A stretch of 64,000 nt of DNA from an uncultured Ectothiorhodospiraceae bacterium (lineage in GTDB: Bacteria > Pseudomonadota > Gammaproteobacteria > JAABTG01), in assembly GCA_937867305.1 (NCBI GenBank), contig CALMKJ010000022.1, forward strand, positions 1 through 64,000. Reading direction: 5' to 3'. This document shows positions 3,631 through 25,243 of this stretch, one piece after another. A model generated the notes under the pieces. That model saw nothing but the letters and a program-made list of their open reading frames with translations. It was not told where the DNA came from and did no database searches. Numbering within the stretch: position 1 is the first letter of the stretch; each line of letters begins with the position of its first letter. The position numbers and the translations under genes were made by a program.

Positions 3631-3861
3631 ATGACCCTCGACGCCCTGCCGTTGCTCGAGCCCGCCACCATCGACGAAGTGGAGCCGTCAGGCCCGCTGA
3701 CGACACGCATGCGGGCCATGGGTCTGCGCGCGGGGCGCGAGGTCGTCGTCGTGCGCCGCTCTCGGTTGGGGGGAACCATGCAGGTCCGGGTGGGCGGCAC
3801 CGACCTCATCATCCGCCCCCGCGAGGCGCGCCTGGTCCGCGTGCGGACCCCCTCCGCGTGA
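3631..3861 (+). CDS. feoA: ferrous iron transport protein A
   Basis: 76 residues forming the small SH3-like FeoA domain (LEPATIDEV, LTTRMRAMGLRAG, GTDLIIRPREARLV). FeoA is a cytosolic accessory of the FeoB Fe(II) transporter. The start at 3631 gives the family's usual length and N-terminus but has no clear ribosome-binding site. An in-frame ATG at 3598 would add 11 residues. The stop overlaps the feoB GTG (GTGA), implying translational coupling. No FeoC gene follows and no Fur box is visible upstream. Confidence 0.9.
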   Translation: MTLDALPLLEPATIDEVEPSGPLTTRMRAMGLRAGREVVVVRRSRLGGTMQVRVGGTDLIIRPREARLVRVRTPSA

Positions 3862-5708
3862 GCGCGGGGAGCGCCGCCGACCGCAGAGGGACGGTGGATC
3901 CCCAGGGGGCCACCGCGCAGACGCCCCCGCGGATCGCCATCGTGGGGATGCCCAACACGGGCAAGTCCACCTTCTTCAATCGTCTCACCGGCGCCCGCGC
4001 GCGCATCGGCAACTGGCCCGGGATCACCGTCGAGCTCCTCTCCGCCAGGGTCACCCTGGGCACGGAGGTCGTGGAGGTGGTGGACCTCCCCGGCGTCTAC
4101 GACCTGCACGGCTACTCGGAAGACGAGCGGGTCGTGCGCCACTTCCTGGAGCACAACGAGGTCAACGTCGTCGCGGTGCTGGTGAGCGCGACCCAGCTGG
4201 ACCGTCAGCTGGTCCTGCCCCTCCAGATGAAGGACCTCGGGCTCCCGCTCGTGCTCCTGGTGAACATGCACGACGAGGCCCAGAAGCTCGGGATCCAGGT
4301 GGACGTGGGCGCGCTGGCCCACGAGCTGGGGATCCCCGTGGTCGCGATGAGCGCGAAGTACGGCCTGGGATTCGCGAACGCCAGCCGCGCGCTCGAGCAG
4401 GCGCTGCGCAGCAGCGAACTGTGCCGCGCCAAGGCCGAGGCCCTGGCCGCGGACGACTCCCTCGAGGCGCGGCTGGACACCCTGATGGAGCGGGCGGTCC
4501 ACGTGCCGGTGCAGTTGCCCCAGGGGCTTACGGCGCGGCTCGACAAGGTCTTCCTGCACCCCTGGCTCGGTCTGCCGGTCTTCTTCGCCATCCTGTGGCT
4601 CGTGTTCGAGGCCGTTTACACCCTGGGCACGCCCCTGCAGGACGGGGTGGCCTGGCTGCTCGAGCACGTGAAGACGGTTGCCCTGTTGCCTGCCATGGCC
4701 GGGGCCCCGGAGGTCCTGCGCAGTTTTCTCCTCGAGGGCCTGTACGACGGCGTGGGGACGGTCGCCTCGTTCCTGCCGATCCTGCTGCTGTTCTTCCTCT
4801 TCATGGGCTTCGTCGAGGACAGCGGGTACCTGGCGCGCGCGGCCTTCCTGATGGACGCCTTCATGGCCCGGATCGGTCTGGACGGGCGCTCCTTCGTGAT
4901 GCAGTTGATGGGGTTCGGCTGCAACGTGCCCGCGCTCATGGGCACGCGGGTGATGCGCTCGCGCGGGCTGCGCCTGCTCACGATGCTGACGATCCCGTTC
5001 TCGCTCTGCTCGGCGCGCCTTCAGGTGTTCGTTTTCCTCACCACCGCGGTCTTCACGCCGGCCGTCGCGCCGCTGGCGCTGTTCAGCCTCTACCTCCTCA
5101 GCTTCGCCGCGGCCTTCCTCACGGCCCTCCTCTATCGCCGGCGGTTGGTGAACGATGAGCCGCTGCTGCTCGAGCTCCCGCCGTTCCGGGCGCCGACCCT
5201 CGGGCAGACGGCGCAGCGCGCCTGGCAGGAGGTGAGTCACTTCCTGCGCGGGGCGACGATCTTCATCGTGCTGGGCGTGGTGCTGGTCTGGTTCCTCACC
5301 CATTACCCGTTCGGCAGCGTGCCCGCGGGCCCCGAGACCCTGGCGGGCCGGCTCGCGGAGTGGACTCAGCCGGTGTTCGCGCCCCTCGGCTTCGACAGCC
5401 TGCTCAGCGTCAGCCTCATCTTCGGGTTCGTCGCCAAGGAGATCGTCCTCGGCGCGATGGCGGTGATCTACGGCGTGGGGGAGAACGGGCTTGCCGGAGT
5501 GGTCGCGAGCCGGCTGGACGCGATCCAGGCCTACAGCTTCATGCTCTTCGTTCTGCTCTACACCCCCTGCCTGTCGGCGGTCGCGACGCTCCGTCAGGAG
5601 TCCCGGAGCTGGGGCTTCACTGCCCTCGCCGTGGCCTGGCCCCTGCTCCTCGCCTGGCTCGCGAGCTTCCTCTTCTATCAACTGGCGCGGGCGCTGACGG
5701 CGGCCTGA
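3858..5708 (+). CDS. feoB: ferrous iron transporter B (GTPase-permease)
   Basis: 616 residues from a GTG that overlaps the feoA stop. The N-terminal G domain has G1 GMPNTGKST (30-38), G3 DLPG (about 76) and a G4 variant NMHDE (about 136; NxxD). The membrane domain follows with Gate motifs around SGYLARAAF, FGCNVPA and PFSLCSARLQVF, including the conserved pore cysteine after FG. It imports Fe(II) across the inner membrane. It is shorter than E. coli FeoB (773 aa), in line with the compact form found in many bacteria. A second in-frame GTG at 3894 is an alternative start. Confidence 0.95.
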   Translation: MSAGSAADRRGTVDPQGATAQTPPRIAIVGMPNTGKSTFFNRLTGARARIGNWPGITVELLSARVTLGTEVVEVVDLPGVYDLHGYSEDERVVRHFLEHNEVNVVAVLVSATQLDRQLVLPLQMKDLGLPLVLLVNMHDEAQKLGIQVDVGALAHELGIPVVAMSAKYGLGFANASRALEQALRSSELCRAKAEALAADDSLEARLDTLMERAVHVPVQLPQGLTARLDKVFLHPWLGLPVFFAILWLVFEAVYTLGTPLQDGVAWLLEHVKTVALLPAMAGAPEVLRSFLLEGLYDGVGTVASFLPILLLFFLFMGFVEDSGYLARAAFLMDAFMARIGLDGRSFVMQLMGFGCNVPALMGTRVMRSRGLRLLTMLTIPFSLCSARLQVFVFLTTAVFTPAVAPLALFSLYLLSFAAAFLTALLYRRRLVNDEPLLLELPPFRAPTLGQTAQRAWQEVSHFLRGATIFIVLGVVLVWFLTHYPFGSVPAGPETLAGRLAEWTQPVFAPLGFDSLLSVSLIFGFVAKEIVLGAMAVIYGVGENGLAGVVASRLDAIQAYSFMLFVLLYTPCLSAVATLRQESRSWGFTALAVAWPLLLAWLASFLFYQLARALTAA

Positions 5709-5741
5709 CCGGCGGGGCGCCGGCCAGGGTGAAGGGTCGGC

Positions 5742-5772
5742 TTGCCGGGAACGGGGCAGGCAAGGGTAATAT
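5742..5772 (+). promoter_or_regulatory. candidate promoter of the cytochrome c' gene
   Basis: TTGCCG (5742-5747) and TAATAT (5767-5772) stand 19 bases apart in one of the few AT-rich spots. The -10 lies inside an inverted repeat GGGTAA (5765-5770) / TTACCC (5785-5790), which could be an operator. The spacing is longer than the 17 bases usual for sigma-70, so the call is tentative. Confidence 0.3.
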
Positions 5773-5841
5773 GCTAACCGGCGTTTACCCGTCGAGCCGA
5801 TGAGCCCGTCGAGCGGCGAAGACCCGCTGGAGGAGAGAGCG

Positions 5842-6291
5842 ATGACCATCCGCGAGCGTTTCGTAGAGTCCCTGGCCCTCTTGGGCGTCCTCGTGGCCGG
5901 AGCCGCGTGGGCCGCGGACCCCGAAGAGGTGATCAAGTACCGGCAGGCGGCGATGAAGGCCCTCGGGGGCCACACGACCGCGATGTCCCAGATCGTCCGC
6001 GGCAAGGTGCCCTTCAACGGACAGCTCGAGGGCCACGCCCAGGCCGCGGCGTCCCTCACCCAGGACATCCCGGCGATGTTCCCTGCCGGCTCCGACTTCG
6101 GCGAGAGCGACGCCCGGCCGGAGGTGTGGAAGAAGCGGGCCGAGTTCGAGAAGGTCGCCGGGGATTCGAGCAAGGCGGCCGGGGCCCTCGCGGCAGCGGT
6201 CCGCTCGGGCGACTCCGCTGCAGCGGGCAAGGCCTTCGACGGTTTCGCCCAGACCTGCAAGGGTTGCCACCAGGGATTCAGGGAGAAGTAG
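5842..6291 (+). CDS. cycP: cytochrome c', periplasmic
   Basis: 149 residues with a signal peptide of about 24 (GVLVAGAAWA) and a four-helix-bundle body. A single heme motif CKGCH sits at 139-143, close to the C-terminus, as in cytochromes c' (cytochrome c_II family). These high-spin periplasmic hemoproteins bind NO and CO and are linked to NO tolerance. The ATG has GGAGGAGAG just upstream. A diheme cytochrome gene begins 13 bases after the stop, so the two form a probable operon. Confidence 0.92.
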   Translation: MTIRERFVESLALLGVLVAGAAWAADPEEVIKYRQAAMKALGGHTTAMSQIVRGKVPFNGQLEGHAQAAASLTQDIPAMFPAGSDFGESDARPEVWKKRAEFEKVAGDSSKAAGALAAAVRSGDSAAAGKAFDGFAQTCKGCHQGFREK

Positions 6292-6304
6292 GCGGGGCCG
6301 CGCC

Positions 6305-7222
6305 GTGGGACGCGGATGGCCCCGATGGGCGGCGGCGTGCCTGGTGCTCGCCGCCGGCTCCTCGTCGGCAGCGGATGCCGACGTCCTCGCCCGAGGCGCC
6401 TACGTCTATCGCGCCTCGGGCTGTCTCGCCTGCCACACCGAGGACCGGGTGGGGGCCGTGCCGCTTGCCGGCGGGCGTGCGCTCGCCACCCCTCTCGGTA
6501 CCTTCCACGCCCCCAACGTCACCCCCGACCCGGAGCACGGCATCGGGCGTTGGAGCGAGTCCGACTTCGCCCGGGCCCTGACCCGGGGCATCGCGCCGGA
6601 CGGGTCCCCGTACTACCCGAGCTTCCCGTACACGAGCTACACGCGGATGCGCCCGGAGGACGTCTCCGTGCTGTGGGCGTACCTGCGTACCGTCGAGCCG
6701 GCGCCGGCCCGGGACCGGCCCCACGAGCTGCCGCTCTATCTGCGTGCGCGGGTGGTCAACTGGGTCTGGCGGGCGCTGTATTTCACCCCGGGTGCCTTTG
6801 CCGACGACCCCTCGCGCCCGGCCGAGTGGAACCGGGGCGCCTACCTCGCCGAGGCGCTGGCGCACTGCGGGGAGTGCCACACCCCGCGCAACGTGCTGGG
6901 TGGGCTGGACGACGCGCGGCGCTATGCGGGTGCCGCGCAGGGCGCCGAGGGAGGGAGCGTTCCGAACATCACGCCCGACCGCGCCACCGGTATCGGCCGC
7001 TGGCGTCCTGGTGACCTCGCCGAGTACCTCGCGAGCGGCGCGACCCCATCGGGGGACTACGCGGGCGGCGGGATGGCCGAGGTGATCGAGAACGGCACCC
7101 GCCACCTGACCGCCGCCGACCGCGCGGCCATCGCGGCCTACGTGCTCTCCCTGCCGGCGGTCGAGAACGCGGCGGGGCGCAAGGAGCGCGGTGTGACCCA
7201 ACCCCGGGGAGAGTTCGATTGA
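6305..7222 (+). CDS. diheme cytochrome c
   Basis: 305 residues from a GTG. A signal peptide (cleavage around residue 23) precedes two cytochrome c domains with heme motifs CLACH (40-44) and CGECH (188-192). Each is followed by the NVTPD / NITPD..GIGRW segment found in diheme cytochromes of the alcohol-dehydrogenase and gluconate-dehydrogenase subunit type. Here there is no dehydrogenase partner, so it is probably a soluble or loosely bound periplasmic electron carrier working with the cytochrome c' upstream. The ribosome-binding site is weak. Confidence 0.88.
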   Translation: MGRGWPRWAAACLVLAAGSSSAADADVLARGAYVYRASGCLACHTEDRVGAVPLAGGRALATPLGTFHAPNVTPDPEHGIGRWSESDFARALTRGIAPDGSPYYPSFPYTSYTRMRPEDVSVLWAYLRTVEPAPARDRPHELPLYLRARVVNWVWRALYFTPGAFADDPSRPAEWNRGAYLAEALAHCGECHTPRNVLGGLDDARRYAGAAQGAEGGSVPNITPDRATGIGRWRPGDLAEYLASGATPSGDYAGGGMAEVIENGTRHLTAADRAAIAAYVLSLPAVENAAGRKERGVTQPRGEFD

Positions 7223-22039: not shown

Positions 22040-23902
22040 TCAGCCCCCCTGGCCCGCGTGCCCCGCGGCGCCGGGGCGTTCCGCGCACTCGCGGAAGATC
22101 CGCACCCGGCAGCGGCGGCAGACCTCGGGGTCCAGCCTCGGCACGATGCTGGCGATCGCCTCGGTCTTGCCCCCGAAGAGGTTCCCGCTCCCGATCTCCT
22201 CCAGGTAGCCGCCACGCACGAGGAGGTCCCGGACGCGGGGCTTGGGGCGGATCAGGTACAGCCCGCCCCCCCGGGCCCTGCGGCGCCCGGCCTCCGCGGA
22301 CAGGAACTCGGCGCCTGCCACGTCGACGAAGTTGATGCCGGTGGAGACGACCGCGAGGTGCTTGCGGGCCGGTTGGTCCGCCTCGAAGCGGCGGAACGTC
22401 TCGGCCACGTGGCTGACGGCGCCGAAGAAGATCGAGCCGTCCAGACGGACGATCCGCAACTGGGGGCACTCGGGCAGCGACGGGTCGGTCACGAAGTGGC
22501 GGTCGGGGCTGCGCGGGTCCGGGACCCGGGGCAGGATGGTGGGGCGGGAGGTCCGGCTGAGGTACAGCACCAGGGAGAGCAGAACCCCGGCGAGGATCGC
22601 GAGCTCGAGGTCCAGCACCAGGGTTGCCCCGAAAGTGACCCCCATCACCGCCGTTTCCTGGCGGCTGGTCCGCACGACCCGGCGGATGTGGTGGAAGTCG
22701 AGGAGGCCCCAGGCCACGAGGAAGAGCAGGCCGGCCATCGCCGCGTGGGGAAGGTAGGCGCCGAGCGGGGCGATGGCCCAGAGCACCCCCACCAGGAAGA
22801 CCCCCGCGAACACGGCCGCCAGGGGGGTGCGCGCGCCGGCCTCGAAGTTGACGGCGCTGCGATTGAAGGAGCCGGTGGCGACGTAGCCGGAGAAGAGGCT
22901 GCCGGCGAGGTTGGAGAGCCCCTGGCCGATGAACTCCTGGCTGCCGTCGATGTACTGGTGCGTGCGCAAGGCGAGCGCCCGGGCGATCGAGATGGCCTCG
23001 GTGAGGGCGAGCAGGGTGGTCGCGAGCGCGGCGGGCGCGAGCGCCCGGATGGTCTCGAGGGAGAGGTCCGGCAGCGAGAGCGGCGGCAGGCCGCCCGGCA
23101 GGGCGCCGAGGGTCCCGATGCCCGTGCGCTCCGGGCCGAAGACGGCGTTCAGCAAGAGGGCCCAGAGGCTTCCCGCCAGCATGGCGACCAGGAGATAGGG
23201 AGCCCGTGGCCAGCGGCGGCGCGCGAGGAGGCCGCTCACGAGGGTCAGGACGGCGACTGCGGTCGCGAAGGGATTCGCCTCCCGCGCCCGCGCCAGGAGC
23301 GTCTGCACCACTTCATGGACCGGCAGGCCCCGGGGCACGTCGACCCCGAAAAAGGAACCCGCCTGCTGGGCGGCGATGAGTATCGCCGCGCCCGCGGTGA
23401 AGCCCAGGACCACGGAGTGCGAAATGAAGTTGGCGAGCGCCCCCAGCCGGGCGAGGCCCATGGCCAGCTCGATCGCCCCCACCAGGAGGGTCAGCGTCAG
23501 CGCGAGGCGGACATAGTCGGCGCTGCCCGGCTCAGCCAGGCCGCTCAGGCTGGAGAAGAGGACGATGGAGGCGGTCGTGGTCGGCCCGGACACCAGGTGC
23601 CAGGAGGAGCCCCAGAGCGCAGCCACGATGGCCGGCACCATCCCGGCGTACAGCCCGTACTCCGGGGGCATGCCGGCCACGGTGGCGAGGGCGACCCCCT
23701 GGGGGAGCACGACGACGGCGCCGGTGAGACCGGCTGCCAGGTCAGAGCGCAGGGACCGGGCGTCGACCCGCTCACGCCAGGCGAGAAAGGGGAACAGCCT
23801 TGCGAGCCAGCGAGACCCGTGCCGGTGGCGGACGCCGGTGGGGCCGGGTGAGGGGGCGGGTGAGGGGCCGGCAGACTGCCCCTCGCGGGAGGAATGGGTC
23901 AT
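22040..23902 (-). CDS. SulP-family anion transporter with STAS domain
   Basis: 620 residues. The SulP membrane domain (about residues 50-450) includes DLAAGLTGAVVVLPQGVALATVAGMPPEYGLYAG and the ARTPLAAVFAG region. A STAS domain (about 475-580; SIFFGAVSHV, VSTGINFVDVAGAEFL) follows. A short tail with CRRCRVRIFRECAERP has three Cys. Bacterial SulPs move sulfate, bicarbonate or dicarboxylates. It is divergent from the sulfur oxygenase reductase gene with a 300-base gap, which favours a sulfur oxyanion, but this is inference. Confidence 0.9.
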   Translation of the reverse strand: MTHSSREGQSAGPSPAPSPGPTGVRHRHGSRWLARLFPFLAWRERVDARSLRSDLAAGLTGAVVVLPQGVALATVAGMPPEYGLYAGMVPAIVAALWGSSWHLVSGPTTTASIVLFSSLSGLAEPGSADYVRLALTLTLLVGAIELAMGLARLGALANFISHSVVLGFTAGAAILIAAQQAGSFFGVDVPRGLPVHEVVQTLLARAREANPFATAVAVLTLVSGLLARRRWPRAPYLLVAMLAGSLWALLLNAVFGPERTGIGTLGALPGGLPPLSLPDLSLETIRALAPAALATTLLALTEAISIARALALRTHQYIDGSQEFIGQGLSNLAGSLFSGYVATGSFNRSAVNFEAGARTPLAAVFAGVFLVGVLWAIAPLGAYLPHAAMAGLLFLVAWGLLDFHHIRRVVRTSRQETAVMGVTFGATLVLDLELAILAGVLLSLVLYLSRTSRPTILPRVPDPRSPDRHFVTDPSLPECPQLRIVRLDGSIFFGAVSHVAETFRRFEADQPARKHLAVVSTGINFVDVAGAEFLSAEAGRRRARGGGLYLIRPKPRVRDLLVRGGYLEEIGSGNLFGGKTEAIASIVPRLDPEVCRRCRVRIFRECAERPGAAGHAGQGG

Positions 23903-23985: not shown

Positions 23986-24202
23986 TTGAAGTCTAGCCCC
24001 GGAGACGGGCGCGGAGTCTCGCGGTTGCCTGCCGGCGGGTGTCCCTATAGCCTTGGCCCCGAGAGTCTTCGAGCGACCCGCGCGGTGTACGGGGCATCCC
24101 CCGGCGGGGCAGTTCGCCGCGACCCGCCGCAACCGCGAGCAGGGTGGTGCCGGTCTCCGCGGGGCCGGCGGTGTGAGTCGACCCCAAATGAGGGAGCAGC
24201 TG

Positions 24203-25243
24203 ATGGCACACAAGAGCAGCGATCTGGAGCGCAGGAAATTCCTCAAGATGACCGCCATGGCGGCTGGAGGTGCGACGATGATGGGTGTGAGCGGGCGGAC
24301 TGTGGCGGCCCCGCAGGCGCTGGACGAGCCCGACAGCCCCATCTATCTCGCCCTGAATATCTCTCGGGTACTCAACAACGAAGAGAGCTTCCGACTGATG
24401 CGCGAGGTCGGGCCGAAGGTGTGCATCACCACGGCATCCCACCCCGGTTTCCTGGGCTTCCAGGCCAACGTGCAGACCGGTGCCATGTCCATTGCGGGCC
24501 GCTACGGCGGGGCCAGGGTGGACATGGACAAGGAGCTCAACCCCATCGGGAACTACCAGTACACCATGTGGAAGACGTGGCAGGACCACGATGACTTCCA
24601 CAGCCGGCAGTTCAAGCGGGTCTTCGAGCTCTGCACGGCGTGCCTGCCCACCGTGGTCGAGGGACCGTGGGAGCCGGTCTACCGGGTCGTCAGGGCGAAG
24701 ATCCCCCAGGTCCGCTCCATGGGCGAGATCACGAAGCTCGCCCAGGACCTCCAGCAGGGCAAGGATTTCGTGCGCTTCGCCACCCCGGGTCGCTGCGTCA
24801 CGCTGGCTCCCCACACGGTCAAGCCCGGGGCGGAGGCCGCCTTCGAGAAAGGGGTGGTGGACACCCTGGAGGCCCTCTCGGATTCCACGGGGTTCCTGGG
24901 CTACATGGTGCTCAAGCAGATGGGGGTCTGCGCCCTCGGCAGCCTGATGCTGGACCCCGAGTCCATGGCCCAGGCCCTGATGACGCTGGGCGCCAACCCG
25001 CCGGACAACCCCAGGCCGGCCTTTGCCACTCCCGACGCCCGGCCCACCCCGCCGGACTACCTGGTGCACACGGAGTGGGATTCGCCCGAGCTGGCCAAGC
25101 TCGGTTTCGCCAAGGTCCTGGTCAACCACCGGATCCGGAAGATCCACGACGATGGGGTCATGGCGCACCTCATCAAGGGCCCCTACATCAAGTTCTTCCG
25201 TCCCATGATGGAAGAGCCCGGCTGGCGCGACCATCTGCGCTGA
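24203..25243 (+). CDS. sor: sulfur oxygenase reductase with Tat signal
   Basis: 346 residues. SOR disproportionates and oxidises elemental sulfur with O2 to sulfite, thiosulfate and sulfide using a mononuclear non-heme iron. From Tyr48 it aligns gap-free through the active site with the Acidianus enzyme at a constant +43 offset. All key residues are kept: C74 (C31 there, persulfide), iron ligands H129, H133 and E157 (H86, H90, E114), and C144/C147 (C101/C104). The 43-residue extension is a twin-arginine signal: ERRKFLK at 9-15, a hydrophobic MTAMAAGGATMMG stretch, and a TVAAPQA cleavage region, leaving about 307 residues, the normal SOR size. AGGGAG precedes this ATG; 24188 is an alternative start. 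Characterised SORs are cytoplasmic, so export here would be unusual. A strong hairpin follows the gene. Confidence 0.93.
   Translation: MAHKSSDLERRKFLKMTAMAAGGATMMGVSGRTVAAPQALDEPDSPIYLALNISRVLNNEESFRLMREVGPKVCITTASHPGFLGFQANVQTGAMSIAGRYGGARVDMDKELNPIGNYQYTMWKTWQDHDDFHSRQFKRVFELCTACLPTVVEGPWEPVYRVVRAKIPQVRSMGEITKLAQDLQQGKDFVRFATPGRCVTLAPHTVKPGAEAAFEKGVVDTLEALSDSTGFLGYMVLKQMGVCALGSLMLDPESMAQALMTLGANPPDNPRPAFATPDARPTPPDYLVHTEWDSPELAKLGFAKVLVNHRIRKIHDDGVMAHLIKGPYIKFFRPMMEEPGWRDHLR
24266..24271 (+). promoter_or_regulatory. internal Shine-Dalgarno inside the sor signal-peptide region
   Basis: GGAGGT at 24266-24271 stands 6 bases before the in-frame Met26-Met27 codons (24278-24283) of sor. Initiation there would give a 321-residue protein without the RR motif. 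The bases come from Gly codons GGA GGT, unlike the GGC/GGG codons this genome favours. It may be chance. Confidence 0.4.

Follow-up and report, generated by a model that had tools for sequence, protein, structure and literature searches.

A sulfur oxygenase reductase with a predicted, conserved twin-arginine signal suggests periplasmic sulfur oxidation in an uncultured Ectothiorhodospiraceae bacterium and related SOR carriers

The analyzed stretch of 64,000 nucleotides, hereafter the window, comes from an uncultured Ectothiorhodospiraceae bacterium and contains a gene for a sulfur oxygenase reductase (SOR) with a predicted Tat signal peptide at its N-terminus. The gene, its divergent neighbor and its internal features are listed below; G001 denotes a second genome of the same genus.

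22040..23902, minus strand: divergent SulP-type sulfate permease with STAS domain (PF00916, E 5.7e-92; same order in G001)
24190..24196, plus strand: GAGGGAG ribosome-binding site, separated by 6 bases from the start ATG (from the sequence; recurs before the same start in G001)
24203..25243, plus strand: sor, 346 aa, Tat-tagged sulfur oxygenase reductase (stop-free translation, PF07682, PDB alignment)
24203..24307, plus strand: residues 1-35 as predicted Tat signal peptide, its end uncertain, with a weak cleavage site TVA↓APQ (TIGR01409, conserved in eight SORs, low pLDDT)
24227..24247, plus strand: twin-arginine motif ERRKFLK, residues 9-15 (translation, motif comparison)
24341..25228, plus strand: SOR catalytic domain, residues 47-342 (PF07682, E 2.5e-133; model compared with SOR structures)
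24422..24424, plus strand: C74, equivalent to Acidianus C31, the catalytic persulfide cysteine (alignment; invariant in 26 SORs)
24587..24601, plus strand: iron ligands H129 and H133, equivalent to Acidianus H86 and H90 (alignment; invariant in 26 SORs)
24632..24673, plus strand: C144, C147 and iron ligand E157, equivalent to Acidianus C101, C104 and E114 (alignment; invariant in 26 SORs)

The host assembly (G000; 2.8 Mb, estimated 100% complete) has one SOR. The gene order epimerase, pdxA, flavin reductase, SulP, sor is common to the window and G001, which rules out a single-genome artefact or MAG contamination. The SulP permease is thus a conserved neighbor of sor in the genus, with a putative functional link; no sulfur gene cluster surrounds sor in the window, and no conserved operon partners of tagged SORs were found beyond the divergent SulP block within the genus. 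The GC content of sor is 0.658, compared to 0.708 for the window. A cation-efflux gene 3′ of sor in the window is missing from G001; there, a partial resolvase and a DUF499 fragment lie in the stretch directly downstream of sor (L066 10645-16400), possibly a mobile insertion. A t44 RNA lies just before rpsB, in a gene order read as glnD-map-rpsB-tsf-pyrH-frr; both point to Gammaproteobacteria, and the assembly yielded no 16S gene. At 3631-7222 the window carries FeoA-like and FeoB iron transport genes, then cytochrome c′ and class I cytochrome c genes; these cytochromes are possible candidates for periplasmic carriers, with a hypothetical tie to sor.

The PF07682 profile matches residues 47-342 of the window SOR over positions 2-300 of 300 (444 bits, E 2.5e-133), and the two His and one Glu ligands and the three active-site cysteines are all present. 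An earlier note on this DNA, made from the sequence without database searches, had described an alignment to the Acidianus SOR without gaps from residue 48, with six active-site equivalents at an offset of +43. Both features were reproduced against the Acidianus structure 2cb2, the alignment being gap-free from residue 48 to about 179, and the window protein is confirmed as a complete SOR with all six catalytic residues. Its NF047630 score is 306.6 bits, below the equivalog cut-off of 400, placing it in the family but outside that strict equivalog set. The best PDB sequence match is the Halothiobacillus neapolitanus enzyme (6qpa, 316 bits), followed by the Acidianus and Sulfurisphaera enzymes at about 238-258 bits. 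An AlphaFold2 model built with its own alignment as input (pLDDT 83, pTM 0.80) has the SOR fold, with TM scores of 0.88-0.91 to SOR structures (normalized to the target). In this model, residues 6-22 are helical, while residues 1-5 and 21-39 have pLDDT below 50, as expected for a predicted signal peptide lying outside the fold.

The N-terminus of the window SOR carries LERRKFLK-MTAMAAGGATMMGVSG. It scores 18.9 bits with TIGR01409 (TAT_signal_seq, NCBIfam) against a cut-off of 16.7, and the Pfam TAT_signal profile scores under its cut-off; taken alone, the profile score gives modest support for a Tat signal, and the comparative evidence decides. The pattern RR.F[LMI][KR] arose in none of 20,000 shuffles of the protein's own N-terminus. 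Among 241 predicted proteins of the window and the fetched loci, its sole non-SOR carrier is a putative hydrogenase small subunit, which we take to be one from its sequence; hydrogenase small subunits are textbook Tat cargo.

SORs were surveyed by a single collection scan together with roughly 1,300 genome searches; since the survey was limited to these, further tagged lineages may exist. Eight tagged SORs were found, two in the window's genus and six in other MAGs, mostly Desulfobacterota, and identities for the full-length ones are 67-97%. In all eight, RRxF[LMI][KR] occupies exactly residues 10-15 and is accompanied by a moderately hydrophobic h-region, an Ala/Gly-rich stretch that leads to a conserved E-P-x-S-P-[IV]-Y at the start of the enzyme. 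Identities to the window SOR are as follows.

Tagged, G001 SOR (same genus as the window): 97%
Tagged, L002/G095: 74%
Tagged, L003/G096, L067/G379, L068/G097 (the same gene as L004) and L015/G108: 67-69%
Tagged, L072/G337: cut by the contig end, not full length
Untagged, L005-L011 (Desulfobacterota-type): 66-72%
Untagged, Halothiobacillus-type SORs: about 45-50%
Untagged, distant SOR branch: about 30%

Among the 26 full-length SORs, TIGR01409 matches precisely the 7 tagged ones (7/7 in the tagged alignment); the other 19, all untagged, have neither a TIGR01409 match nor the RR motif, which rules out the tag as a general SOR trait. The earlier note's central claim, a Tat signal ahead of an intact SOR, is therefore strongly supported by the TIGR01409 match, by N-terminal RR extensions at an identical position in eight SORs, and by the presence of tatABC in the host genome, where tatA, tatB and tatC run consecutively on contig C204, a different contig from that of sor.

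Several other SOR sequences were encountered in the survey. Two tagged-clade-like fragments, L047 (G267 contig C1) and L038 (G107), have an in-frame TGA in the reported match and are possibly decaying copies or assembly errors. G004, a genome of the window's family, has two untagged SORs (L018 and L023): one is of the Halothiobacillus type, and the other is more diverged, at about 45% to the window. The distant untagged branch (about 30% to the window) includes L021, L022, L055 and L057, which come from genomes of the window's class. L055 has a 533-bit match to PDB entry 9rdn; of the main family's conserved flanking features, it is missing the third and the fourth.

In an unrooted tree, seven tagged rows cluster with the untagged L005. 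A constraint that keeps the seven tagged SORs together as a clade carries a penalty of 1.35 log units (p-AU 0.19), so that a single origin of the tag is neither shown nor rejected. Since the tagged SORs group with the Desulfobacterota-type SORs in this tree, we infer that sor would have entered the window's genus by lateral transfer.

Most tagged genes have a ribosome site ahead of the long start: GAGGGAG in the window, AGAGGAGGAGG in L002, AAAAGGAGG in L068 (the frame of which opens one codon ahead of the long start), and GAAAGGAGG in L072. In contrast, untagged sister SORs have their own ribosome site directly ahead of the short start, so that start calling does not account for the difference between tagged and untagged proteins. 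When the window is compared with G001, identity is 75.7% over the 100 bases 5′ of the start, where a 3-base indel falls just before the ATG, and conservation increases at the Met1 ATG: the signal region is 91.5% identical and gap-free (dN/dS 0.18), and the SOR domain is 94.9% identical (dN/dS 0.06). By these sequence comparisons, the Tat signal is translated and under purifying selection, and the 5′ leader is not conserved. The earlier note had named a true start at Met26 or later as one finding that would overturn its reading. The ribosome site, the rise in conservation at the ATG and the indel just before it all back Met1. In L002, the RR motif and the SOR domain are not separated by any ATG, GTG or TTG, and no untagged form could be made there from those starts. 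An internal start at Met26/27 as the main form is rejected on these grounds and because the Shine-Dalgarno-like GGAGGTG located 7 bases ahead of codon 26 in the window is altered to GGCGGTG in G001; a minor cytoplasmic product from Met26 may nevertheless be made in the window organism.

The characterized members of the family, which the earlier note gave as cytoplasmic 24-mers, are described in agreement with that account: SOR is reported to be cytoplasmic (PMC12345210, PMC7398979), and the Sulfurisphaera tokodaii enzyme forms a hollow 24-mer with a mass of 857 kDa (PMC7398979). The SORs of Acidianus ambivalens (2cb2) and S. tokodaii (6m35) have the same fold (TM 0.89-0.91 to the target) and active-site residues as the window SOR, but they have no signal and are described as cytoplasmic. 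The H. neapolitanus SOR (6qpa), the closest solved structure by sequence, belongs to the same family with the same catalytic residues (46% identity in a structural alignment), but its chain begins directly at the enzyme, with no Tat signal. Likewise, the untagged L005-L011 contain the same five cysteines as the window SOR, but each has its own ribosome site, starts at the enzyme and lacks the RR motif. A parallel for export is YcdB/EfeB of Escherichia coli, from the related ferredoxin-like barrel superfamily: according to a reference cited in PMC4835899, YcdB is a known Tat cargo, exported with its cofactor, as is proposed for the tagged SOR. However, it is a heme protein with no sulfur chemistry and a much smaller oligomer, and the likeness is one of fold only. 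A literature search to which most subscription papers were out of reach found no report of an exported SOR; what appears to be new here is a conserved, predicted export tag on a branch of an already known SOR family.

Taken together, it is likely that the window protein is a genuine SOR that is exported across the inner membrane by Tat and oxidizes sulfur with O2 in the periplasm. Under the proposed mechanism, the SOR chain would fold in the cytoplasm and bind its mononuclear iron, and the RR signal would bring the folded monomer or a small oligomer to TatABC. A metal enzyme must fold around its iron first, which suits Tat rather than Sec. After reaching the periplasm, the enzyme would be freed by cleavage, or would stay tethered if its weak site is unused, and would assemble there, probably into the usual hollow sphere; an 857 kDa particle is too large for Tat and could not cross in assembled form, so assembly after export must be assumed. 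With O2, periplasmic SOR would convert elemental sulfur or polysulfide to sulfite, thiosulfate and sulfide with no sulfur import. In the window's genus, whose SoxB is Tat-tagged too, thiosulfate may then pass to a Sox system, and other enzymes facing the periplasm may take up the sulfide. Because SOR requires no external electron carrier, only its products could feed periplasmic cytochromes. For the tagged SOR, we infer that it is exported and cleaved and assembles afterwards, as well as its substrate and the downstream pathway. The fuller picture is offered tentatively, as somewhat less likely than not: in an SOR group common to Desulfobacterota and the window's lineage, folded, iron-loaded subunits would cross Tat, build a periplasmic cage of roughly 0.8 MDa, attack extracellular sulfur without import and, in the window's genus, replace the Dsr pathway.

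The sulfur and oxygen genes of the respective genomes bear on the role of such an enzyme. Both genomes of the window's genus contain the tagged SOR, SoxB and COX1 and lack dsrA, whereas two other genomes of its family contain an untagged Halothiobacillus-type SOR (at about 48%) and dsrA; an exported SOR fits the combination of SoxB and terminal oxidases without dsrA in the genus, as opposed to dsrA with an untagged SOR in the same family. The soxB gene of the genus (L082 10642-12429 in G001; G000 contig C163 1842-3569), whose product has a Tat-like RRDF at its N-terminus, stands alone, with no other recognizable sox genes in the stretch examined. Among the six tagged MAGs outside the genus, none has COX1 and five contain dsrA, a profile that would be anticipated for sulfate reducers or disproportionators. 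This pattern, along with a reaction that consumes O2 and conserves no energy (PMC12345210), would suit a Tat-exported SOR that serves mainly to remove periplasmic O2 at the expense of sulfur before it enters the cytoplasm, above all in Desulfobacterota, rather than energy metabolism. Such a main role seems rather unlikely: by COX1, the oxygen-reducing marker examined, two clear matches per genome indicate that the window's genus lives with O2, and untagged SORs likewise occur in MAGs without COX1, so that its absence does not set the tagged ones apart.

The untagged L008 and L009 adjoin paired YeeE/YedE-type sulfur-transport genes (PF04143), which fit a cytoplasmic enzyme supplied by import, and no such genes were found in the flanks of the tagged loci; because several tagged loci are short and five untagged loci also lack these genes, this contrast is only suggestive. 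Paired PF04143 genes also lie beside the untagged SOR of L084 (4123-8335, G101 contig C10), as they do in L009 (2581-4757). The L084 gene is additionally accompanied by a metallo-beta-lactamase/rhodanese fusion (persulfide-dioxygenase-like) and SoxB-like genes, and in these Desulfobacterota-type MAGs the two loci may represent a gene cluster for importing sulfur and oxidizing it in the cytoplasm.

The form taken by the exported enzyme can be considered from its cleavage site and chimney. The cleavage site is weak in both the window and G001 SORs, and the chimney region is kept but shorter than in Acidianus, with Ile in place of F133; the archaeal enzymes have a longer chimney with Phe133 and Phe141. 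These features could point to an SOR that stays membrane-tethered by an uncleaved signal, or to a small oligomer in place of the 24-part sphere. We consider this improbable, as other tagged members have normal sites (e.g., ALA↓QQQ, SFA↓QEP, AGA↓AEP) and the shorter chimney is common to untagged sisters, and hence is not linked to export. That the tagged SOR acts in the cytoplasm, through a start inside the signal or a Tat-like extension that goes unused, is hinted at by GGAGGTG in the window and by untagged sisters in the same group, but is very improbable in view of the loss of that site in G001, the lack of a Met there in tagged members outside the genus, the lack of any motif-free start in L002, and a gap-free signal under constraint with its motif at one position in eight proteins.

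Because SOR is described as cytoplasmic, models of sulfur oxidation that include it need a route carrying insoluble sulfur into the cell. Surveys that score every SOR as cytoplasmic would overlook the tagged clade. The tagged clade also raises the question of whether the subunits of a 24-part cage can be exported folded by Tat and then built on the far side. Judged from its sequences, the whole SOR branch with the conserved tag probably works outside the inner membrane. If true, O2-consuming sulfur chemistry would sit in the periplasm of bacteria without a heme-copper oxidase, and the tagged clade would remove the need for sulfur import and help to explain sulfur-oxidizing genomes that lack Dsr.
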